DNA from: a virus
Length of the DNA stretch: 37,558 nucleotides
IMG/VR virus record: IMGVR_UViG_3300035698_025578
Location: 1 to 37,558 of that record
Strand: one strand, 5' to 3'
Shown here one piece after another: positions 9,400-29,595 of the stretch. Both the position numbers and the translations under genes were made by a program. Positions within the stretch are counted from its first letter, which is position 1. Each line of letters opens with the position of its first letter. The notes beneath the pieces were generated by a model. The model had not been told where the DNA came from. It worked only from the letters and a program-made list of their open reading frames with translations, and searched no databases.

Positions 9400-9421
9400 A
9401 TTCTATTTGATGGAGAATATT

Positions 9422-10537
9422 ATGAATTATTATGTTTATGTTTATCTTGATCCACTCATTGAAATATGTAAAGCCTATGAAGGATACGAGTTTTGTCATG
9501 CACCATTCTATATTGGGAAGGGCAAAAATACTCGATCAACTAAGCACTTAATTGAAGCCAAGAAATATTATGGAGTGGATTCTTCAAAAATAGGAGTTGG
9601 TTTAAATACGGCGAAAATTTTAAAAATTAATGAATTACGAGCTAAAGGCTTAAAACCGGAAATAACAAAAATTAAAACAGGTTTATCAAACGATGAAGCA
9701 TGCTTATTAGAAATTGCGTTAATTGCCGATATAAGAAGAGATTCATCAAACATTTTAACCAACATTAATCCGGGGGGTGAAGGGGGTGATAATATTTCAA
9801 TGCATCCCGATAGACTAAAAATAATTAAAAAAATATCAGATGGTGGAAAGAAAAGATTTAAAGAAAATCCTGAATTGTCGAAAATATTATCAGATAGAGT
9901 TAAAGGCGCGAAAAACCCTATGTATGGCCGAAATGATCAATGCTACAAGCCTGGTGGTATAGTAGATTATGCTAAATATATAAAAGGCTTAACTTATGAA
10001 GAAATATATGGTAAAGAAGAGGCTGAAAAACTAAAAACCAAATTTAGTCAGGATCGATTAGGTAAACCTAAGCCTGAGGGATTTGCCAAAGGTGAAAAAA
10101 ACTCTATGTATGGTAGATCAGTTTACGACACCTGGTTGGAAAAATATGGAAAAGAAGACGCCGATCGCCGACATATTAATTTATGTGAAAAAATGAGTAA
10201 TGGTCAAAAGGCTAGATATGACGACCCACAAGAGCGAATTAAACGCTCAAATCAACTCAAAGATCAATGGGCCACAGGTAAAAGAACTAAGATAGATAAT
10301 TTTGGTGAAAAAAATGGCAAATTTAAAAAAATATCAAAATACGATCAAAATAAAATAATTAAACTATATACATTAAGTAAATTCTGTATGTTTGATATTG
10401 TAAAAATTACTGGATGGTCAAAATATAAAATTTCTCAAGTTTTAAAAACTAATGGTGTTTATTTAGGCAAATGCGCGTATAGATTAAGTAAATTAAATAA
10501 ATTATCTATTAAAAATAGAGTGAGATTTGGAGCTTAG
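9422..10537 (+). CDS. GIY-YIG homing endonuclease with NUMOD3 motifs
   Basis: A 371-residue protein with an N-terminal GIY-YIG nuclease. Y-V-Y-V-Y-L forms the GIY strand, F-Y-I-G-K-G the YIG strand, and the catalytic Glu lies in C-L-L-E-I-A-L near residue 95. At least two NUMOD3-type DNA-contact motifs follow (N-P-M-Y-G-R and N-S-M-Y-G-R), then a C-terminal helix-turn-helix-like end. The ATG at 9422 has a GGAG site at 9412; an upstream in-frame ATG (9410) overlaps that site. It makes double-strand breaks in alleles lacking the insertion. It lies between two copies of the hydroxymethylase 3' end. Confidence 0.9.
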   Translation: MNYYVYVYLDPLIEICKAYEGYEFCHAPFYIGKGKNTRSTKHLIEAKKYYGVDSSKIGVGLNTAKILKINELRAKGLKPEITKIKTGLSNDEACLLEIALIADIRRDSSNILTNINPGGEGGDNISMHPDRLKIIKKISDGGKKRFKENPELSKILSDRVKGAKNPMYGRNDQCYKPGGIVDYAKYIKGLTYEEIYGKEEAEKLKTKFSQDRLGKPKPEGFAKGEKNSMYGRSVYDTWLEKYGKEDADRRHINLCEKMSNGQKARYDDPQERIKRSNQLKDQWATGKRTKIDNFGEKNGKFKKISKYDQNKIIKLYTLSKFCMFDIVKITGWSKYKISQVLKTNGVYLGKCAYRLSKLNKLSIKNRVRFGA

Positions 10538-10659: not shown

Positions 10660-11424
10660 ATGGATTTTAGATTTAGAGAAGGTTTAACGATAAGATGCGA
10701 TGAGGATCCTGATGGTGTAGTAACGTTTATTGATGAAACAGACAACTCGTGTAGTCTTTCAATTAAATCAATTGTAAATTCTTTGAGTGCATCAGGCTCA
10801 AATTATTTTTCATCGGTGAGTGGTACCGTTATTAAAGGTGGGATAAAAATCGAAACCAGTTTACCACGCAGCGTAACAGATCTTCTTTTAGATAATAGTG
10901 CATATTCTGAAACTATTCGAAATGAAATTTCATTATTTGCTGCTAATAATATATTCGCCAATGGTAAAGTTTTTAATGCTGTATATAATGACATGGCTGA
11001 ATTTCGTAGATTAACTAAAGATCTAATAATCGATGATCAGTCTATATATGCAGGCAAATGCTTTTATCAAACTGAAGATGGTGTAGCACTCACTACTGAA
11101 AGAATGCAACCTGCTATTTTAGGAATATGTTCTGATACGTATGGTTACGTTTTAGGCACCCCTGATAAATATCACATAGCGCTTGGATTGGCGGGTTATG
11201 TTTTGGCTAGGATTGATGAAGCTGATTTAACTGATATATTTACTGGTGCATGCTTAACTTCAGGAAAAGATGGAATTTTGACGGTTATGTCAAGAGCCGA
11301 AATTAAAGAATATCCTGATAGAATAATAGCAACATATTTGGGTACTAGCGAAGACGAATGTTTAAACACCACTTATTCTAAAAAATTAAATGCCCATAAT
11401 AGGTATTGGGTTAAGATTAATTAA
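10660..11424 (+). CDS. virion/tail protein with peptidase-G2-like C-terminal domain
   Basis: A 254-residue protein. The first 90 residues resemble the Ser/Gly-rich virion proteins at the left of the window. From about 100 it carries the pattern F-N-A-V-Y-N-D-M-A-E-F-R, followed by short beta strands with many Gly. This recalls the C-terminal domains of phage tail proteins grouped with the peptidase G2 autoproteolytic family. Whether it self-cleaves cannot be judged from sequence. A GAGG site precedes the start. The gene ends 9 bp before the first radical SAM gene, so it may share their operon and could be one of their substrates. Confidence 0.55.
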   Translation: MDFRFREGLTIRCDEDPDGVVTFIDETDNSCSLSIKSIVNSLSASGSNYFSSVSGTVIKGGIKIETSLPRSVTDLLLDNSAYSETIRNEISLFAANNIFANGKVFNAVYNDMAEFRRLTKDLIIDDQSIYAGKCFYQTEDGVALTTERMQPAILGICSDTYGYVLGTPDKYHIALGLAGYVLARIDEADLTDIFTGACLTSGKDGILTVMSRAEIKEYPDRIIATYLGTSEDECLNTTYSKKLNAHNRYWVKIN

Positions 11425-11433
11425 AGGTTTCAA

Positions 11434-12768
11434 ATGTATAAGTTTTTTACGGAGCACATATCCGGCTTGTCTGCTGGATGGTGTAATCTTAAGTGTAAAT
11501 ATTGCTATATTTCAAAAGATGACGAAAAAACTAAATTTTATCATCAAAAAATATTATCGAATTTAGCTGATGGAAGTCATATTAAATCGATTAATGATGC
11601 GATAGGTATAGAAAACTTAAAAAGCTATTCACATTGGGGAACCGAACCTGGATTGACATTGAAACATTACGAGGATTTTTATAATGAAGTTCTTGACAAA
11701 GTAACAACCGAAGAATTTATTATAAGTTTTTCTTCCAATTTTATAATGTCAGAGAGTACATATATCGATTTCATTAAAAAATTACCCAAACATAAACGAA
11801 AAATTGTCAAACTACAGCTACAATGTTCCTTAGATGGTCCTAAACAAATTACTGATGAAAATCGTAATGAAGGCAGTACTCAAAAGATCGTAGATCATTT
11901 TATATTATTTGTGAAAAGACTAAACGAAGATCAAGATTTAATCGATACGCCATTCAAAGAAATTTCTATTCATTTTAAAAGTACTACATCAATTAATCAA
12001 TTTAAACAATTAAGCACTAAAAAGGCATGCCTAAATTTTTATAAATTTTTTGATGCTGTTTTGGGTAATGTATTACGGTTCAACACAAATGGTGTTGTAA
12101 GTATTTCAACATTTGTTTCACCTACTAAAATTACACCTGAAGAAGTCTCACCAGAAATGGCTAAATATTACACTAAGTTTTTTAAAACATTTTTATCACT
12201 TTTGGATGAATTTAACAAATTTAAATACGCTAAGCCAGGATTTACACTATATTCAATGTTTGAGAATTGTGTAACTAATTTGGAATATTCGCTAACGCAC
12301 GGCTCAAGTTATAAATGTTCGGCAGGCGATTCCAATTTTTCTCTAAATGAAAAAGGTAATTTTGTTCCATGTCATAGATATTTCTTTTCTAATTACAAAA
12401 CTCATACTCGCATTGAAGAAAATATGACTAAAGCGGAATTTAATAATTCACCTGAAAAACTCAAAAATAAATTTATTGCCCATCAAATGTATAGAGGTTA
12501 TAATGATTTTTATGCATTCCAGTTTGGGAGCATGAAAGCACTAATACGGGAAACAGCTGAAAGTGGACTAATATCAGAAATTTATAAAACTAATGAACAC
12601 TATGCAAATATGCTTGCTCATTTTTGTATAAATGGATTTGCCTGCCCTGCTGAAAATTATATCGCCACATGTTCCACAATGGTTAGAGATATTAATGACA
12701 TAATCAGTTTTGGAAATGGATTGATTGAAGAATTTATTAATTACAATAAGCAAAAGAGTGACAATTAA
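11434..12768 (+). CDS. radical SAM/SPASM-like enzyme 1
   Basis: A 444-residue protein with an N-terminal radical SAM cluster site C17-x3-C21-x2-C24, reading C-N-L-K-C-K-Y-C. The C-S-L-D-G strand at 131-135 is typical of SPASM-type enzymes. C-terminal cysteines likely bind auxiliary Fe-S clusters: C295 and C313 (P-C-H-R), then C398, C404 and C413. Such enzymes use S-adenosylmethionine radicals, most often to modify peptides or proteins. The layout departs from the standard SPASM spacing, unlike its neighbour. It is preceded by an AAAGG site. The target is unknown; candidates lie downstream in the same operon. Confidence 0.85.
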   Translation: MYKFFTEHISGLSAGWCNLKCKYCYISKDDEKTKFYHQKILSNLADGSHIKSINDAIGIENLKSYSHWGTEPGLTLKHYEDFYNEVLDKVTTEEFIISFSSNFIMSESTYIDFIKKLPKHKRKIVKLQLQCSLDGPKQITDENRNEGSTQKIVDHFILFVKRLNEDQDLIDTPFKEISIHFKSTTSINQFKQLSTKKACLNFYKFFDAVLGNVLRFNTNGVVSISTFVSPTKITPEEVSPEMAKYYTKFFKTFLSLLDEFNKFKYAKPGFTLYSMFENCVTNLEYSLTHGSSYKCSAGDSNFSLNEKGNFVPCHRYFFSNYKTHTRIEENMTKAEFNNSPEKLKNKFIAHQMYRGYNDFYAFQFGSMKALIRETAESGLISEIYKTNEHYANMLAHFCINGFACPAENYIATCSTMVRDINDIISFGNGLIEEFINYNKQKSDN

Positions 12769-12772
12769 TAAT

Positions 12773-14128
12773 ATGAAAAATGATAAAAAGGATTTAATAT
12801 TAACTAACTTCTTGAATAAGCGATTCATTAAGACTTGGGCAAAATTACAAAAGTCTGAGGAAGATATCGATAAAGATGCGCTATTAGAAGCGAATTCTAT
12901 TACGCTTGAACTTATGTATAATTGTACATGCAATCTTGCTTGTAAATATTGTTACTATAATAAGAATAGCAAAAAATTATATCCTAAGGTTGCTAATGAA
13001 AATGAACTAGTTGAAAACCATATCGATGCAATATTAGCCTATTTAGAAAATAATAATTTATACCCTAATATAAGTGTATTTTCTGGAGAAATTACTATTA
13101 CGGATACCGGCATAATGATTCTTAACAAAATAGTTGATTGGAAAATCAGAAATTCTAAAAGCCGCCGCATCCCTTTCCAATTTTGTATACCGAGTAATAT
13201 GACGTTTTTGGATGATGAGAAACGAACTAAGCAAATTGAAGAATTGTTTGAAAGAGCCCAAAGTAATGGCATACATTTTGGTATTTCAGCGTCAATAGAT
13301 GGAAAGCATTGTGATTCTAATCGACCATATAAAACCGGATTTGTTAGAGACGATGATTGGTATGATAAAGTCTTTACGTGGTGCAAAAAGTATAGTGTAG
13401 GATTTCATCCTATGGTCTATGCAGAAAAGATTGAAAAATGGGTTGATAATTTTAATTGGTTTATTGAGATGTTTAAAAAATATGATATGCCAATTTCTAT
13501 GCTATATCTCCTTGAAGTCAGAAATCCTAATTGGAGCAAACAGAATATAAAAGATTTTTATGTATTCATCAATTACTTAACTGATTGGTTACACACATAT
13601 TATAAAGAAGACTTTATTAAGCAATTTTTTGGTTCAAATTTCGAAAAGAGCAACTTCAATATTTTATCAAACAACTTTAGTGAAACTGGTAGAGGAATTG
13701 GTTGCACTCTACAGACTACATTATTCTTGCGTTTATTGGATTTAGAGTTTTTTCCTTGTCATAGACTGCAGTATCCTGAATTAGCGGCCGGGAAAATAAA
13801 GTTTGATTGTGACAACTTATTTGTTCAAGCTAAAAATTTGGAAAACTATTTAACCGCAAACACGTTTGACGTAAAGAATCTGCCATGGTGTGAAAATTGT
13901 GAAATAAAAGATTTATGTGTTGGTGGATGTCCTGGATCACAGTATGAAGCCAATACTGATATGTACATACCGAGTTTTAATATTTGTAAATTGCAGTTCA
14001 TAAAAAATAGAGCTATAATTGATGCGATCGTAAAAAACGATAAATTATCTGAATTTCTGATGTATTTCAATGATGAAACACAGAGAATTATAATAAATAT
14101 AGCTAAATATGGAGAAGAAAATGAGTGA
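12773..14128 (+). CDS. radical SAM/SPASM enzyme 2
   Basis: A 451-residue protein. The radical SAM cluster is C53-x3-C57-x2-C60, followed by the S-A-S-I-D-G strand at 172-177. The SPASM domain is canonical: C311 and C329 (P-C-H-R), then C373-x2-C376-x5-C382-x3-C386, and a final C405. This matches sulfatase-maturing and RiPP-modifying enzymes. The ATG at 12773 is chosen; the longer frame from a TTG at 12725 would overlap the previous gene. It begins 4 bp after enzyme 1 stops, and its end overlaps the next gene by 8 bp. Enzymes 1 and 2 share general layout but little sequence, so they are probably not a recent duplication. Confidence 0.9.
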   Translation: MKNDKKDLILTNFLNKRFIKTWAKLQKSEEDIDKDALLEANSITLELMYNCTCNLACKYCYYNKNSKKLYPKVANENELVENHIDAILAYLENNNLYPNISVFSGEITITDTGIMILNKIVDWKIRNSKSRRIPFQFCIPSNMTFLDDEKRTKQIEELFERAQSNGIHFGISASIDGKHCDSNRPYKTGFVRDDDWYDKVFTWCKKYSVGFHPMVYAEKIEKWVDNFNWFIEMFKKYDMPISMLYLLEVRNPNWSKQNIKDFYVFINYLTDWLHTYYKEDFIKQFFGSNFEKSNFNILSNNFSETGRGIGCTLQTTLFLRLLDLEFFPCHRLQYPELAAGKIKFDCDNLFVQAKNLENYLTANTFDVKNLPWCENCEIKDLCVGGCPGSQYEANTDMYIPSFNICKLQFIKNRAIIDAIVKNDKLSEFLMYFNDETQRIIINIAKYGEENE

Positions 14129-14660
14129 AAATGAAGTCGTAGAAACTGAAGTTTCGAAAGAAAACTTTGATGCATATAATACTGCAGAACAAATTATTGA
14201 GAAATTTTTTAATTCACAGAACGTCATAAAGTATAAGTTGTTCTCTGCTGGTGGGATTAAGCCTGTTATTTATATCTTTAACAGAATTAAAGAACAGAGT
14301 CGAGCTATGCAAAAAGCTGAAAATCCCGATATTAAAAAGCTTACAAAGGAAGATATAGATATAATTGAAAAGAACATCTTTTTGCAACTCGAAAAAAACT
14401 TAATCTTTGAAGCACTTGACACAAAAACCAAAGAGTTTATAAAAACATTTATGCTTTTCATTTTTAATTGGAATGCAAATAGCATAAAAAATTCTATGAT
14501 TGAATATAATGCTAAAAAATTAATTCAGCTTACAGAATTGCAAATATCGCTTAATAATACTATAAATATATTACAGTTACTGAACTCATCACTTTCTGAA
14601 AAAATAACATGTTTTAAATCCTCGAGCGAATTAAGTAAGCAATATCTACAGCTGGAATAA
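14121..14660 (+). CDS. helical protein of rSAM cassette, unknown
   Basis: A 179-residue, almost wholly helical protein with an acidic N-terminus and a single Cys near the end. No domain is recognised. The ATG at 14121 has a GGAG site at 14111; another in-frame ATG at 14109 lies too close. Translational overlap with radical SAM enzyme 2 suggests a partner function such as substrate delivery or chaperone; this is inference from gene order only. Confidence 0.6.
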   Translation: MSENEVVETEVSKENFDAYNTAEQIIEKFFNSQNVIKYKLFSAGGIKPVIYIFNRIKEQSRAMQKAENPDIKKLTKEDIDIIEKNIFLQLEKNLIFEALDTKTKEFIKTFMLFIFNWNANSIKNSMIEYNAKKLIQLTELQISLNNTINILQLLNSSLSEKITCFKSSSELSKQYLQLE

Positions 14661-14665
14661 TATAA

Positions 14666-16630
14666 ATGGCATTTGCAGAACAAAATTATAGATTAACCGG
14701 ATATATTGGTCAAGAAATAGATTTTGTTGCGCCCATAGGCTGGCCTTCTGAAGATTACTATGATATACAACTTTCATTAACGTGTTATACTCATAGTAAT
14801 GACGGCAACAAAGAGCAAAAATATTATTTTAATGCTCAAGATTTTTTTGATGATGACGCCTGGGTATGGGAATGGAATATTTTAGAAGGTTCATTTTCAT
14901 TGCCTGATTGGTGGCAAAATCAATATACTAAAATTAATCCAAAATTGACAGGCATATCACACCAAACAATTATTGATATGCTGAGTTCTGAATTGAGCTC
15001 TAATGTTAGCATTATACAAGCTATTGATTCAAATACGATTTATAATTCATTAGAGCCTGTTATTGATGAAGCGTTTATTCCGTATCCTAGAGACTATTTA
15101 ACATATAACTATAAAAACCATTATACCGATATTGTTAATCAGAGTCATATACAATTGCTTTCCACTCATGTTCATGATATTCAAGTAGAATTAAATAAGT
15201 GTATAGCAAATAAAACCAGTGAAAAAATGCTAGTAAACTCTACACAGTTCTTTAATGAAAAGAGTGCTTACTTTTCAGGAAACCAGATCAATAATTTTTC
15301 AGCAGAATGCCCTATGTTTTGTTCTATAGAGCATAAGCTATTAGGTTTTGATCATATACCTGTGAAATCAGCTGTTGCCGCAGTAGCTAGAGGCGGCGGC
15401 AATAATTGCTCAGCTGGTCAATGGTCAATAGATAGAAGAACGGGCCATGAAAGTGAAATAGTTGGTCGAAACATAGGTATGGGCAGAATGTTCTTTCATC
15501 CACACAATGGTGCCGCTATAAATGACGGTTTGGTGTTTAAATCATATGAAGGTGGACAAGGATCAAATGATTTTTCTAATTTTTATTTGCCAATTCCTGG
15601 TGATCAAGAAGATTCAATTGAGGATGATACATTATTACCATTACCTGGACGACCTGCAACATACTGGAAAAGAGTTAAAGAATTTGTTTCGATTTTAGGT
15701 GGTGCGGGTGATGCTGATAAGTATGGAGAAGGACCTTGGCAAGTAATTACAACCGTTGGAAAATGGATGATGCTAGAGGAGGCATCAATTGTTGGAGGTG
15801 CAGATTATTTTAAAAGTGGCGACTCGGTTTCACCAGCATATAATTATAATATTCAACAAGTGTTTTTATATAAAACAGCAGATCCCACGCTCTTTTTTAG
15901 GCCGACAAAGGATATGACGACATTAGAGTATGATGTTACACATTTAGATCCCAACGATGAAAACTGTCCGTTTTTAACTTTTGAAGTTAATCAAATATTA
16001 GACCAAGAAAATAATATCTTACTAAGGCGCCCCATATATTCATGGAGACTCTGGCACTTAAATAGTATAAATGGAACCCGAAATCAATCTGATGCCCGTC
16101 AAAATTTAATGAATAATAAACAATTAATTCCCATTGATGCTATTATAAAAGCAGCAGAAGATATGAAAACTCCAATTTTTTATTATGGAAAGTACACGAA
16201 TTTATTTTTTCCTGAAGAATTAACTTCAAGAGGTATTAATTATGATGGGGTAGAACTTTTTACATATACATTAGATCATAAAGGTGACGTGGCGGGTGGC
16301 AATTTAATTAATAACTTAAAAACTGCTGGCGGGGGCAATAGACCGACTTATTACAGTTCAACAATAGACGATGATGGTAATACTGTAGGCGCATATCCAG
16401 TTGGATATGCGATGCGTTCCGGATTTGGTTCATTACAGCAAAAATGTCAAGAACTTGGTACAAATTGGAACCCTGATGAAGCAGAAGCATATGGCGGTAG
16501 CGGATTAAAAAACATTTATTCAATATTAGTTGATGATGGAAATTGGGATAAATTTGGGGGCACGCGAACAGCATGGCAAATTATTTATAATTATATTATG
16601 GGTAGTGATCCTGTTAATGCAAATCCATAA
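14666..16630 (+). CDS. large cassette protein A, candidate rSAM substrate
   Basis: A 654-residue protein without signal peptide or membrane segment, rich in aromatic and Asn residues. Residues about 35-70 (L-T-C then N-A-Q-D-F-F-D-D then W-x-W-x-W) and about 155-190 match parts of the next gene's product. It contains C179-I-A-N-K-T, the C-x-A-[N/D] motif shared by five proteins here, and a later E-C-P-M-F-C. Gly/Asn-rich stretches follow (G-G-G-N-N-C-S-A-G near 250). It looks like a structural or adhesin-type protein. It starts 5 bp after the helical gene. The family is not recognised. Confidence 0.6.
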   Translation: MAFAEQNYRLTGYIGQEIDFVAPIGWPSEDYYDIQLSLTCYTHSNDGNKEQKYYFNAQDFFDDDAWVWEWNILEGSFSLPDWWQNQYTKINPKLTGISHQTIIDMLSSELSSNVSIIQAIDSNTIYNSLEPVIDEAFIPYPRDYLTYNYKNHYTDIVNQSHIQLLSTHVHDIQVELNKCIANKTSEKMLVNSTQFFNEKSAYFSGNQINNFSAECPMFCSIEHKLLGFDHIPVKSAVAAVARGGGNNCSAGQWSIDRRTGHESEIVGRNIGMGRMFFHPHNGAAINDGLVFKSYEGGQGSNDFSNFYLPIPGDQEDSIEDDTLLPLPGRPATYWKRVKEFVSILGGAGDADKYGEGPWQVITTVGKWMMLEEASIVGGADYFKSGDSVSPAYNYNIQQVFLYKTADPTLFFRPTKDMTTLEYDVTHLDPNDENCPFLTFEVNQILDQENNILLRRPIYSWRLWHLNSINGTRNQSDARQNLMNNKQLIPIDAIIKAAEDMKTPIFYYGKYTNLFFPEELTSRGINYDGVELFTYTLDHKGDVAGGNLINNLKTAGGGNRPTYYSSTIDDDGNTVGAYPVGYAMRSGFGSLQQKCQELGTNWNPDEAEAYGGSGLKNIYSILVDDGNWDKFGGTRTAWQIIYNYIMGSDPVNANP

Positions 16631-16631
16631 A

Positions 16632-16639
16632 TATAAATA
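16632..16639 (+). promoter_or_regulatory. T4-type late promoter octamer
   Basis: An exact TATAAATA starts 1 bp after the preceding stop codon and ends 27 bp before the ATG at 16667, with an AAGGA ribosome site between. This suggests the last four cassette genes can be transcribed late on their own. Confidence 0.55.
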
Positions 16640-16666
16640 TAGCTAAAGAATTTTTAAGGAATAACA

Positions 16667-19114
16667 ATGGCTTTACAATTTAGAAATAGTTCAGGCACAC
16701 AAATATCGACACTTAGCGGGGAGGTGTTTTATTCCGAAGATTTAGAATTTACTTTACAGTTGTTTAATGATAGCACAACAACACCTGTGAGTTTTTCGAA
16801 CATTTCGAGTAATAGTTTACAGTTTACTATAGGTTCTGATGGTGTTACATATAGTGAATACACTCCAGTAACTAATTTGGCCGTCAGTACATATGAAACA
16901 TTTTACTGTAAATTTTCAGCTAACGGTTCGGGAACATATAATATATTACTTCGCGCTGATTCTACTGATACTGGCATAGATCCCATAATATTAAGTATTG
17001 AAATATTAGTTGTGGGATCTGCTGTACAGATACTTAATTCGTCTTTCGAAGCAGTGCCTGCAACATTCACGTTTAATACTGATTTGAATACTTCGCCATC
17101 TTTGAGTAATGTATATATTCACGGCTTATCTAATTCTCAAATTGATGCAACACCTCACGGAGACACGCCGTCATCAACAGAATCTGGTGCTTCAGATGGT
17201 AATGTATTTGCAGAAATAGTAAAACTCCGAAATTATAGCAGTGTAGCTAAAACTATTAAATTCTCAGATTTGAAAAATTTAGAAATAATCGTTGACGGAA
17301 ACACGCTATTGGCAAATGTTCCCGATTCTACATCTTCACGAAATTATACCATTGCGGGAAATGCAACAGTGAATTTTACGATAAAATTGCATTCACAAGT
17401 TCCAATGACTAGACCTTACCGTTTTGAAGCGAGAAGTCCTGCATGGAGTAATAAAATAGAGGATCAAGATAAAGCCGTAACTGTCGGTGGAACTTCCATG
17501 ACAGTTCATGAGTATGCCTTACAAAATGATGAAGAAGTTGAAGCTATAATTTATAGTAAATTTAAAGAATATTTAATTCTTACTGATACGTCAACAAATA
17601 TACCAATAAAAACCTATTCATTTACTTATAAATTTTACCATGCGTATCAAGGCATAATTTTTAATATCGCGCGATACAATTGGGAAAATACTAATCCTGC
17701 ATTTTCGCAATCACAAAAGGTTTATCCTATCGGTTATGATACTCGACGAATGAATCCTGTCGTTAAAAATCTGGAAGGAGTAGCCGCTGCTAGAAATAGT
17801 ACACTATTAATTGATAGTTTTTATAATATAGGAAATCCTATATATCCATGGAACTCTACTGAATATTTTTTAAATGACTTAAAAGCTGATGAAGAAGGTC
17901 TTTCTGGTAGAATATTTGGTGCGTATACATTTTTAAATAATCTAAAAACTATTGATGGATTTGGCTCCGTTAAGGAAAAGCATATATTTGATGTTGACAA
18001 TGAAAATTGGGGATATACTTCCGTTAGAATCAAATATAGTACACATAGTTTACAGGATGCAATAGAACCTTTTGGGTCATCTACTCCAAGTCTTTTACCA
18101 ACTGGCTATAAATTAAACATTACCGGAACCCCTGTTGCTTTTAATGGTTTAAAATTTGATATTAATGATTTTAGTGAAAATCTTAAGAATTTTATTAATG
18201 CAGGTAAAGCTGAAGTAAGTATAGCATTATGTCTAGCAGCTCTTGGTGAATCCCAGGGTATAGCATCAATACTTACTATAACCCAAGCAGATACATCTAT
18301 AAAATATTTGTCACCATTAGAAAATCAAGAATTGATGATACAAATCAAAATTATTCCTGCTAATTTTGATGGTTCAGAAGAGGGTGAAGATGATTTTGTT
18401 ATTCCTGTTATGGGCACAAACGGAACCCAGGATATAACATATACGGAATATGCTGTTCATTATAATTTTACTATTAATGGTGCTAAAGCACAAAAATCAT
18501 TTGAAGATCCAAATGTAGTAGATGCTTTAGGTAATCCTTTAAAGCTAACTTTAACTTGCGGCCAACATGGAATTTTGGGAGTTGATCGAGCATATACTAA
18601 CGCTCAAAACTTTTTTGATGACGAACAATGGCAATGGACATGGGATAATTATGATGAAGTGGTTTATCCTCCAGATTTTGATCCAGAATTAAATCCTAAA
18701 TATAATCCAAAACTTTTGACACCTATTGATTTATATGCGTTCAATTTGGTTTCATCACACGTGCCACCTTCTGCTGTTTATGCAATTGATCCAATTGAGG
18801 TATATAATCAAGGTAAAAAATTCGTTAACGTAGGTTTAATCACTGATCCAGCGGATGAACCAGGATTTAGTTTTGATATACAAGTCTTTAATCAAATTGA
18901 TAATGCTGAATATTTAGTGTTATGTGGGTTTATTTATGATGTTTCGGGTATGCTACAATGCCTTGCTGATAAAACCACAGATAATTTTACTGTAAATTCG
19001 GGATATAATTCTAATGATACCGAACGATGCTTAGCACAATGCCCAAATCACTTCCAGTTGGTGTATGGTGCAGAGTATCAATCATATCAAACACATTATG
19101 GCGTAAATCCATAA
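16667..19114 (+). CDS. large cassette protein B, candidate rSAM substrate
   Basis: An 815-residue protein. The first 120 residues look like an immunoglobulin-type beta domain, with repeating Ser/Thr strands and a T-L-S-G-E motif like the fibre gene. The C-terminal third is homologous to protein A: L-T-L-T-C, N-A-Q-N-F-F-D-D and W-x-W-x-W near 625-670, then C765-L-A-D-K-T and V-N-S, followed by C-L-A-Q-C-P. It ends in H-Y-G-V-N-P. Likely a virion or released adhesin-type protein; function is inferred. Confidence 0.6.
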   Translation: MALQFRNSSGTQISTLSGEVFYSEDLEFTLQLFNDSTTTPVSFSNISSNSLQFTIGSDGVTYSEYTPVTNLAVSTYETFYCKFSANGSGTYNILLRADSTDTGIDPIILSIEILVVGSAVQILNSSFEAVPATFTFNTDLNTSPSLSNVYIHGLSNSQIDATPHGDTPSSTESGASDGNVFAEIVKLRNYSSVAKTIKFSDLKNLEIIVDGNTLLANVPDSTSSRNYTIAGNATVNFTIKLHSQVPMTRPYRFEARSPAWSNKIEDQDKAVTVGGTSMTVHEYALQNDEEVEAIIYSKFKEYLILTDTSTNIPIKTYSFTYKFYHAYQGIIFNIARYNWENTNPAFSQSQKVYPIGYDTRRMNPVVKNLEGVAAARNSTLLIDSFYNIGNPIYPWNSTEYFLNDLKADEEGLSGRIFGAYTFLNNLKTIDGFGSVKEKHIFDVDNENWGYTSVRIKYSTHSLQDAIEPFGSSTPSLLPTGYKLNITGTPVAFNGLKFDINDFSENLKNFINAGKAEVSIALCLAALGESQGIASILTITQADTSIKYLSPLENQELMIQIKIIPANFDGSEEGEDDFVIPVMGTNGTQDITYTEYAVHYNFTINGAKAQKSFEDPNVVDALGNPLKLTLTCGQHGILGVDRAYTNAQNFFDDEQWQWTWDNYDEVVYPPDFDPELNPKYNPKLLTPIDLYAFNLVSSHVPPSAVYAIDPIEVYNQGKKFVNVGLITDPADEPGFSFDIQVFNQIDNAEYLVLCGFIYDVSGMLQCLADKTTDNFTVNSGYNSNDTERCLAQCPNHFQLVYGAEYQSYQTHYGVNP

Positions 19115-19136
19115 AGGTTCACTTTTAGGAAACATA

Positions 19137-19457
19137 ATGACTTGGCAATGGACTGATAATATTACAACGACATATGAAACAGAATACACAATATTAAGTG
19201 TTAATGATTTATATTCGCTAAGAGAATTAGCAAATGGTCTAGATTTAAATCTTAGATGTACAGCAAATTTTAGTCATGTTTTTACTATTTTTAATACACC
19301 TGACCATCAATTAAATTATGCCTCAGATAATAACAAAGATCATACAGCAGACAGAAAAGCATATATGTCAAATTATATAGAGGATAATATTGGAGGAAGT
19401 GAAGAATCGCCATTTCAATGCGTGCCATATTTTTGGCGAAAAGATGGAGGATTATAA
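19137..19457 (+). CDS. small cassette paralogue 1 with R-C-T-A-N-F motif
   Basis: A 106-residue protein. It starts with W-x-W-T-D, followed by an amphipathic segment ending in L-R-E-L-A-N, resembling the short W-T...hxELR modules of some phage and bacterial surface proteins. Then comes R-C41-T-A-N-F, and Y-A-S-D-N follows after about 15 residues. A further Cys is near the end (Q-C-V-P-Y). It is the first of three tandem paralogues. An AGGA site precedes the ATG. No established function. Confidence 0.65.
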   Translation: MTWQWTDNITTTYETEYTILSVNDLYSLRELANGLDLNLRCTANFSHVFTIFNTPDHQLNYASDNNKDHTADRKAYMSNYIEDNIGGSEESPFQCVPYFWRKDGGL

Positions 19458-19459
19458 TA

Positions 19460-20032
19460 ATGTCATATACTTGGACAGAGTTTGAAACGATCACCATCGA
19501 AGATTTAAATAAATTACGGGAAGATGCAAATGCACTAACGATACACACGCGCTGCACCGCAGATTTTAAATTAGTGCACACAATTAATAATATTGGAGAT
19601 TTGCGTACAAACTATACTTCAGATAATTATTCAAATCAATTAACAGATAAATTTGGTAATAATAGTCTGGTATTAGGTAATTATAGTTGTGCTATGAATC
19701 CAGGAAATGGCGAAGCAACTTGTCAACGATGGCAAGAAGATAATAATCAATGTTCGAGTCATACCGAATTTTTAAATCAGGACGGTACGCCAATGGGATT
19801 ATTTGATAATAAGGGAGATATGTTTCATTTTATCCCGATACCCACGTTAGATGAAGCTCAAAACTTTAATACTGATGGTCGCCATAATTCAGGAATAGGA
19901 ACTTCTTCAGATAAATATGTTGTAAATAACTTAAATGCATTAGGGGAAAATACTGATGGTTTATGTCATCCGTGGAACAAAACCAATTGCGCTAATTATT
20001 TTACAGAATTACAAAATCAAGGATTTATTTAA
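19460..20032 (+). CDS. small cassette paralogue 2 with R-C-T-A-D-F motif
   Basis: A 190-residue protein starting at the ATG with a GGAGG site at 19446-19450; the longer frame from 19418 would overlap the previous gene. The first 60 residues repeat the paralogue 1 plan: Y-T-W-T, then L-N-K-L-R-E-D-A-N, R-C32-T-A-D-F, T-I-N-N, Y-T-S-D-N. The rest is Asn/Gly-rich with six further Cys and no recognised domain. Candidate substrate of the radical SAM enzymes. Confidence 0.65.
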   Translation: MSYTWTEFETITIEDLNKLREDANALTIHTRCTADFKLVHTINNIGDLRTNYTSDNYSNQLTDKFGNNSLVLGNYSCAMNPGNGEATCQRWQEDNNQCSSHTEFLNQDGTPMGLFDNKGDMFHFIPIPTLDEAQNFNTDGRHNSGIGTSSDKYVVNNLNALGENTDGLCHPWNKTNCANYFTELQNQGFI

Positions 20033-20316
20033 TGTATACGTGGACCAACGATATTACAAATTTAGATACTACGATTGATACTGATAATACGATTGAAGTT
20101 ACTGATTTTAATAACATCAAAAATATCATAACATCATTTTCATATACTAATAGATGTACAGCTAATTTTTACACCGTTCAAACTATTTTTCATATAGCGG
20201 TTTATGATACTCAAAATACTTCAGATGATTTTAATAATTTTTCACTAAATAAAACAGCTCGAATGAGCGTAGACTATTATATGCAAAATGTTTATGAATA
20301 TGGCATGGGTCTTTAA
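20032..20316 (+). CDS. small cassette paralogue 3 with R-C-T-A-N-F motif
   Basis: A 94-residue protein whose ATG overlaps the previous stop by 1 bp, with AAGGA upstream. It has the same plan as the two preceding genes: Y-T-W-T-N-D-I, an amphipathic segment, R-C42-T-A-N-F, T-I-F, and T-S-D-D. C42 is its only Cys, so the shared motif holds the one conserved thiol of the set. It is the last gene before the sigma-factor promoters. Confidence 0.65.
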   Translation: MYTWTNDITNLDTTIDTDNTIEVTDFNNIKNIITSFSYTNRCTANFYTVQTIFHIAVYDTQNTSDDFNNFSLNKTARMSVDYYMQNVYEYGMGL

Positions 20317-29325: not shown

Positions 29326-29595
29326 ATGAGTTCAAGTAGATGCCGGTTTTGTGGGTCGTCGAGTTTTGGAACGGGTTGTCCATATAGCCCAACAGGTTAT
29401 CATGAGCACTCAGGTGATTCTAAGAAGTGTGAGTACTGTAATTCATCATCATATGGTACAGGCTGCGCATATAGCACTGCAGCAAAAAAGGTTCATCGTC
29501 ATGGCCCAGGAGATGGTAAGTGCCGTTGGTGTGGTGGAAAGAACGTATCAGGCTCAGGATGTGCGTATAGCCCTACAAAATTTCATGAAGCATAG
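29326..29595 (+). CDS. early protein with three Cys/His zinc-ribbon-like repeats
   Basis: An 89-residue protein made of three units of about 28 residues. Each reads C-x2-C, then G-[TS]-G-C-x-Y-S, then a His: C-R-F-C...G-C-P-Y-S...H; C-E-Y-C...G-C-A-Y-S...H; C-R-W-C...G-C-A-Y-S...H. Each unit could hold one zinc (CCCH or CCCC-like). It has its own strong early promoter and an AAGGA site. Function is unknown; nucleic-acid or host-protein binding is plausible. An overlapping frame at 29351 is a shadow. Confidence 0.75.
   Translation: MSSSRCRFCGSSSFGTGCPYSPTGYHEHSGDSKKCEYCNSSSYGTGCAYSTAAKKVHRHGPGDGKCRWCGGKNVSGSGCAYSPTKFHEA

Follow-up and report, generated by a model that had tools for sequence, protein, structure and literature searches.

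A recurrent phage cassette places two radical SAM enzymes beside Cys-bearing tail-region proteins that are candidate substrates

What would a phage do with two radical S-adenosylmethionine (SAM) enzymes encoded side by side behind a tail-fibre-like gene? The question is raised by a virus record of 37,558 bases (IMG/VR record IMGVR_UViG_3300035698_025578, handle G000; referred to as the window), in which two consecutive radical SAM genes, rSAM1 and rSAM2, are followed by a gene for a helical protein, H, by two long genes and by three short genes encoding proteins of a family that we call S. The whole analysis consisted of sequence comparison and prediction, and the contigs compared are metagenomic fragments. 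We propose, with a probability of about 0.68, that these genes form a phage-borne maturation cassette like those of ribosomally synthesised and post-translationally modified peptides (RiPPs), in which the S proteins would be modified at a Cys, most likely by formation of a thioether, and displayed on the tail.

Homology searches indicated that the cassette of the window is a fragment of a larger pattern, found in 35 distinct loci. The set comprises the window, 33 other IMG/VR contigs and L020, a 5.7-kb contig from a bacterial metagenome-assembled genome, three loci with identical rSAM2 having been removed. Both enzymes are encoded in all 35 loci, and one to three S proteins are adjacent in 34; the lone locus without them, L055, is cut off at the contig start. 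The preliminary description of this stretch had tied the enzymes to the Cys-motif proteins, a tie that would loosen if the enzymes were widespread without them, and the count bears the tie out. As in RiPP systems, a ribosomal candidate substrate is therefore encoded beside the enzymes at these 34 loci, its modification being predicted. H was detected in 32 of the 35, and L082 has a similar gene in the same place that scores under the threshold. A reverse search seeded with the S N-terminus, which reaches near relatives only, returned ten loci, seven of them known and three new: the two enzymes are encoded in L100, the contig of L099 opens with a SPASM fragment, and that of L093 ends directly after the S genes.

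The order of the genes varies (S-S-R1-R2-H; R1-R2-H-S-S; R1-H-S-S-R2-H; H-R1-R2-S, where R1 and R2 are the enzymes), indicating that the linkage was retained through rearrangement, and in Mantel tests the sequence divergence of each of rSAM1, rSAM2, H and S among loci follows that of the others (r 0.60-0.84, p 0.0005). Earlier work interpreted phage radical SAM genes as metabolic cargo (PMC2853527), and the gene of Campylobacter phage CP220 sits among unrelated genes. The enzymes described here could be cargo that simply neighbours the S genes, the shared Cys being structural. This is hardly credible, given that the four gene families are almost always linked and diverge in parallel in phages distant from one another, and that the SPASM domain is of peptide-maturase type.

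The enzymes are just ~30-40% identical across the cassette phages. A viral scan seeded with the single full rSAM2 sequence gave no match, an rSAM2 fragment led to one viral contig, L003, and alignments of the enzymes led to the wider set; the scans were pattern-based and seeded from family members. L003 repeats the gene order of the window, with a tail-like protein, rSAM1, rSAM2, a helical protein and two short proteins, of which one has C-T-A-N. The same contig encodes two more radical SAM genes (G001:C1:101869-102204 and 107696-108112), 10-16 kb from the cassette. Scanning GTDB genomes returned L020 as the one close relative, the rest being distant Bacteroidales enzymes (21-36% over partial length). 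The genetic code was chosen for each locus by enzyme score, and a reassigned stop was needed to read the enzymes in four distinct loci (TGA as Trp in L010 and L055; TAG as Gln in L020 and L058), so the cassette is present in phages with altered genetic codes. The cassette genes of L057 are likewise read through only with TGA as Trp. Searches by tblastn with rSAM1, rSAM2, the two long proteins and the S proteins against 50,697 INPHARED phages returned nothing or one weak match, a faecal contig where the matching gene lies beside ABC-transporter and protease genes; the cassette was found in no INPHARED isolate phage by this search.

The cassette lies wholly on the + strand and has the following layout in the window.

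10660..11424, + strand: tail-fibre-like protein, 254 aa (blastp matches to L003, L042, L056, L065, L066, L080, L100 and others, E down to 3e-26; aligned with L003)
11434..12768, + strand: rSAM1, radical SAM enzyme with CX3CX2C and a partial SPASM-like C-terminus (C295, C313-H314, C404)
12773..14128, + strand: rSAM2, radical SAM enzyme with a complete seven-Cys SPASM domain (AlphaFold model matching CteB, anSME, ChlB and SuiB)
14109..14660, + strand: H, helical and probably a partner protein (six homologues aligned)
14666..16630, + strand: 654-aa protein with C179-I-A-N, candidate substrate homologous to the 815-aa protein (no database family)
16667..19114, + strand: 815-aa protein with C765-L-A-D near the C-terminus, candidate substrate (no database family above cut-off)
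19137..19457, + strand: S protein 1, 106 aa, R-C41-T-A-N-F (S-domain profile E 5e-11)
19460..20032, + strand: S protein 2, 190 aa from ATG 19460, R-C32-T-A-D-F (S-domain profile E 4e-9)
20032..20316, + strand: S protein 3, 94 aa, R-C42-T-A-N-F, the sole Cys of the protein (S-domain profile E 2e-10)

The start of S protein 2 is most likely the ATG at 19460 and not that at 19418, as judged from the alignment of the paralogues. The preliminary description had reported two adjacent radical SAM genes at 11434 and 12773 with CX3CX2C sites, a canonical SPASM domain in the second, and a helical protein followed by five proteins that each contain C-x-A-[N/D]. Genes, coordinates and motifs were all confirmed, and the motif is present as a single copy in all five proteins and absent from the rest of the open reading frames listed for the window. 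Composition-preserving shuffles produced the motif in 0.8-6% of trials per protein and in all five together in 0 of 20,000, a figure that overstates independence because homology within groups accounts for part of the sharing. Homology joins the three small proteins (E 2e-12 to 1e-5) and likewise the 654-aa and 815-aa proteins, in the latter case across 186 residues that include the motif (E 5e-15); a search for homology between the two groups detected none. The idea of one alignable motif thus stands as far as its presence in all five proteins goes, but they form two homology groups rather than one. Similarly, the proposal that all five are substrates is backed by homology for the three small proteins, while for the 654-aa and 815-aa proteins, linked to them by motif and position alone, a substrate role is plausible. 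Among relatives the motif takes the more general form C-x-[A/T/S]-[H/D/N/Y], in which the Cys alone is nearly fixed.

The S proteins, most of them 85-390 aa long, share a common architecture. A helical, tryptophan-containing and often duplicated N-terminal part leads to the Cys, and beyond it lies a tail rich in D, S, Y, T, N and G. In the first 12 S proteins Met1 and the Cys were the only invariant residues and the flanks of the Cys varied; in the full set of 66 the Cys is in place in 61, within the pattern C-x-[A/T/S]-[H/D/N/Y]-[Y/D/N/K], the register of a few divergent proteins having been set by hand. The AlphaFold model of an S protein, confident in the N-terminal part only, has helices as far as the Cys and disorder beyond. 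The tails are periodic at 4, 8 and 16 residues (z 16.5, 27.9 and 36.1 against shuffles; z = -17 at lag 2), and the N-terminal parts give no signal at lag 8. The repeated unit is a tetrad, [C/D/N/Y]-[S/T/A]-[T/S/A/G]-[H/Y/D/V], that runs in register with the Cys, which occupies the slot otherwise taken by D, N or Y.

To which family do the two enzymes belong? The cluster sites, C17-x3-C21-x2-C24 in rSAM1 and C53-x3-C57-x2-C60 in rSAM2 (counted from the ATG at 12773), are invariant in 31 rSAM1 and 32 rSAM2 homologues, which identifies both as radical SAM proteins; Pfam PF04055 matched with 24 and 21 bits, under its cut-off of 29.5. In rSAM2 the SPASM Cys set (C311, C329, C373-x2-C376-x5-C382-x3-C386 and C405) is complete and invariant in 32 homologues, and the NCBIfam SPASM model TIGR04085 scores 33 bits, above its cut-off of 27. 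rSAM1 reaches 13.5 bits with this model and has only C295, C313 and C404 as conserved C-terminal Cys, short of the seven of a full SPASM domain. The best NCBIfam match of both enzymes is PapB (NF047865; 76 bits for rSAM2 and 44 for rSAM1, cut-off 340), followed by other peptide maturases, all far under their family cut-offs, as for the SCIFF maturase CteB (TIGR03974; 33 and 29 bits, cut-off 425) and the anaerobic sulfatase maturase, anSME (TIGR03942; 42 and 28 bits, cut-off 349). A profile search of the PDB placed 5WGG (CteB) at the top for both enzymes (8e-16 and 2.6e-12), and the AlphaFold model of rSAM2 (predicted local distance difference test score, pLDDT, 88.6) matches the fold of CteB best, and those of anSME, ChlB and SuiB. 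The closest solved relatives by profile and fold are thus Cys-acting peptide enzymes, with CteB first. A defence role was also considered and set aside, the pointer to it being only a weak viperin-like match of rSAM1.

The residue that follows a SPASM Cys helps to separate two chemistries. It is His in rSAM1 and rSAM2, as in the PCH of CteB, and not Asp, as in the PCD of anSME, where we take this Asp to be the catalytic base. This difference favours a thioether-type chemistry over formylglycine, the bond itself being a prediction. Formylglycine-type oxidation of the Cys, as carried out by anaerobic sulfatase maturases on C-x-[P/A]-x-R, had been raised in the preliminary description; C-x-[A/S/T] does resemble the sulfatase motif, and anSME is among the fold and profile matches. 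We nonetheless rejected it as very improbable: besides the Cys-His pair and the low anSME scores, Arg stands at position +4 in just 2 of 59 S proteins, and the S proteins have no sulfatase domain.

The genes around the cassette suggest where the S proteins might act. In L044 a lambda-J-like tail protein precedes the cassette, in L042 terminase, portal and capsid genes lie downstream of it, and in L074 a tape-measure gene lies ~5 kb before it; these differing surroundings indicate that different phage types carry it. At least 10 other contigs have, near their cassette, the C-terminal tail-fibre-like domain of the protein at 10660-11424, and L080 encodes a fusion of a repeat-bearing S module with a laminin-G-like domain. 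These neighbours and the fusion point to host-contact structures, in line with the structural or adhesin setting supposed at the outset, and from this context the S proteins may be present in virions. The leader-like N-terminus, the disordered tail and the size of most S proteins would equally suit the precursor of a released, bacteriocin-like RiPP that is no part of the virion. We consider such a product improbable, since S genes lie among tail genes in unrelated phages, with recurrent linkage to the tail-fibre-like domain and the one laminin-G-like fusion, and since no exporter or protease gene was seen recurring beside the cassette in the loci read, an uncounted observation. As a separate observation, the S protein of L065 (8502-9059) ends in S-D-I-R-L-K-K-D-I, and the protein at L012:9143-9691 ends alike; we take the L065 terminus to resemble the start of a tail-fibre intramolecular chaperone (Peptidase_S74).

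Four observations weigh against maturation at the Cys as proposed here. The score of each enzyme is far under the cut-off of every named NCBIfam family. Position +4 from the Cys is not fixed and may be Y, D, N, K, F, H or R. The S tails of the window have no significant period (z = 1.8), from which it appears that this phage has a degenerate version in which the Cys was retained. Finally, N or D replaces the Cys in 5 of the 66 S proteins, so the Cys is dispensable in some of them. Four of these five are not scattered: in loci of the order R1-H-S-S-R2-H, the S copy adjoining rSAM2 has no Cys in 4 of 4 cases, against 1 of 62 elsewhere (p = 7e-6). These four loci are related (rSAM2 44-62% identical) and do not represent four independent events. 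The pattern would fit a division of labour in which the Cys is the site of rSAM1 while rSAM2 has another target, but this is only a hint. L099-S2 and L100:9310, found from the S side and outside the count of 66, also have no Cys.

The Cys-less copies that remain beside rSAM2 and H, with their repeats kept, could also mean that the enzymes act mainly on the tetrad repeats, at Asp, Asn, Tyr or His, for instance by carbon-carbon cross-linking or epimerisation, with the Cys as the first repeat position or a docking residue. The register of the Cys with D, N and Y agrees with this, and the cyclophane maturases YhhB and GrrM are among the weak family matches. Some S tails are nearly devoid of aromatic residues (L042) and those of the window are without repeats, yet the Cys is kept in both situations, and we regard the repeats as rather unlikely to be the main target.

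Collectively, these data are most readily accommodated by a model of maturation at the Cys. The substrates would be the small S proteins of the tail region, whose helical N-terminal part may serve as a leader-like recognition module with the conserved Cys at its end, and whose flexible tail, built of [C/D/N/Y]-[S/T/A]-[S/T/A/G]-[H/Y/D/V] tetrads in most relatives, would be core-like. rSAM1 and rSAM2, probably with H as a partner, would act on the Cys and possibly on the subsequent repeats. The likeliest chemistry is a radical thioether joining the Cys sulfur to a nearby residue of the tail, and the mature S proteins would probably be exposed on the phage tail, serving there in adhesion or host contact. 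A bolder version can be entertained tentatively, in which two cooperating radical SAM enzymes introduce Cys-based cross-links and perhaps repeat-wide changes, making the tail surface a ribosomally made, radically cross-linked polymer in a widespread, undescribed class of phages.

Conservation of a four-part cassette across divergent phages, even those with altered codes, points to radical chemistry on the phages' own tail proteins and not to cargo. If this is true, it would provide a post-translational route to host-binding diversity and two new paired peptide-modifying enzymes for which the repeats are an obvious substrate. In addition, many tail-region genes of viral metagenomes that lack annotation can be labelled by function from the cassette.

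Other candidate enzyme-substrate sets were noticed during the survey. Tail-region proteins at L019:7611-8833, L012:9143-9691 and L011:7907-8474 carry Cys-rich eight-residue repeats (such as C-D-C-A-Y-A-C-T) after a similar N-terminal domain and adjoin two to five distant radical SAM genes; they possibly represent a second class. At L016:11062-12765 a radical SAM gene is immediately followed by the gene of a protein that begins with a Cys-rich C-x2/3-C stretch (MGYCDGWETCSACQGVSCEGYC...), and the two form a further candidate pair. Outside the cassette, the window encodes nucleotide-metabolism and DNA-modification genes (dUTPase, alpha-glucosyltransferase and DNA methyltransferase). Just upstream of the cassette, the gene at 9407-10537 resembles a GIY-YIG endonuclease (LEM-3_GIY-YIG, 51 bits; weak NUMOD3 match), and its product is probably a homing endonuclease. 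The protein encoded at 29326-29595 is short and rich in Cys; it has three repeats of the type C-x2-C-x5-6-G-x-G-C-x-Y-S and by eye resembles a zinc ribbon.

How does the cassette compare with known systems? The preliminary description had not recognised it from described phages, and our search of 5.39 million open-access papers (bioRxiv and most subscription journals lie outside this scope) turned up no account of radical SAM enzymes maturing phage tail proteins. Phage-encoded radical SAM proteins in exchangeable cassettes are known. In Campylobacter phages CP220 and CPt10 they were interpreted as interchangeable modules with a probable metabolic function (PMC2853527), and in pelagimyophages they were named only as cassettes (PMC7029224). 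Unlike the cassette described here, the CP220 gene examined has no S or H gene annotated alongside, and we rejected the Campylobacter-phage genes as the same system. Among the known enzymes, anSME (TIGR03942; PDB 4K36-4K39) is a good fold match and, as a SPASM enzyme, targets one Cys within C-x-[P/A]-x-R; it differs in having Cys-Asp in place of Cys-His, and Arg is rare at +4 in the phage proteins. CteB, the SCIFF maturase (TIGR03974; PDB 5WGG), shares P-C-H at the SPASM Cys and is the top profile and fold match; its system includes a six-Cys SCIFF peptide, which the phage cassette does not have. PapB makes Cys-Asp/Glu thioethers (Cys-X3-Asp/Glu) and accepts spacings of 0-6 residues (PMC9413430). 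A fixed Cys-X3-Asp thioether as in PapA was rejected for the S proteins because +4 varies, which departs from the substrate motif of PapB. The likeness to PapB lies in a SPASM enzyme that acts on Cys in a ribosomal peptide, whereas the candidate substrate of the phage cassette is a tail-region protein, usually with one Cys and no fixed Asp at +4, and is encoded with two enzymes and a helical protein.

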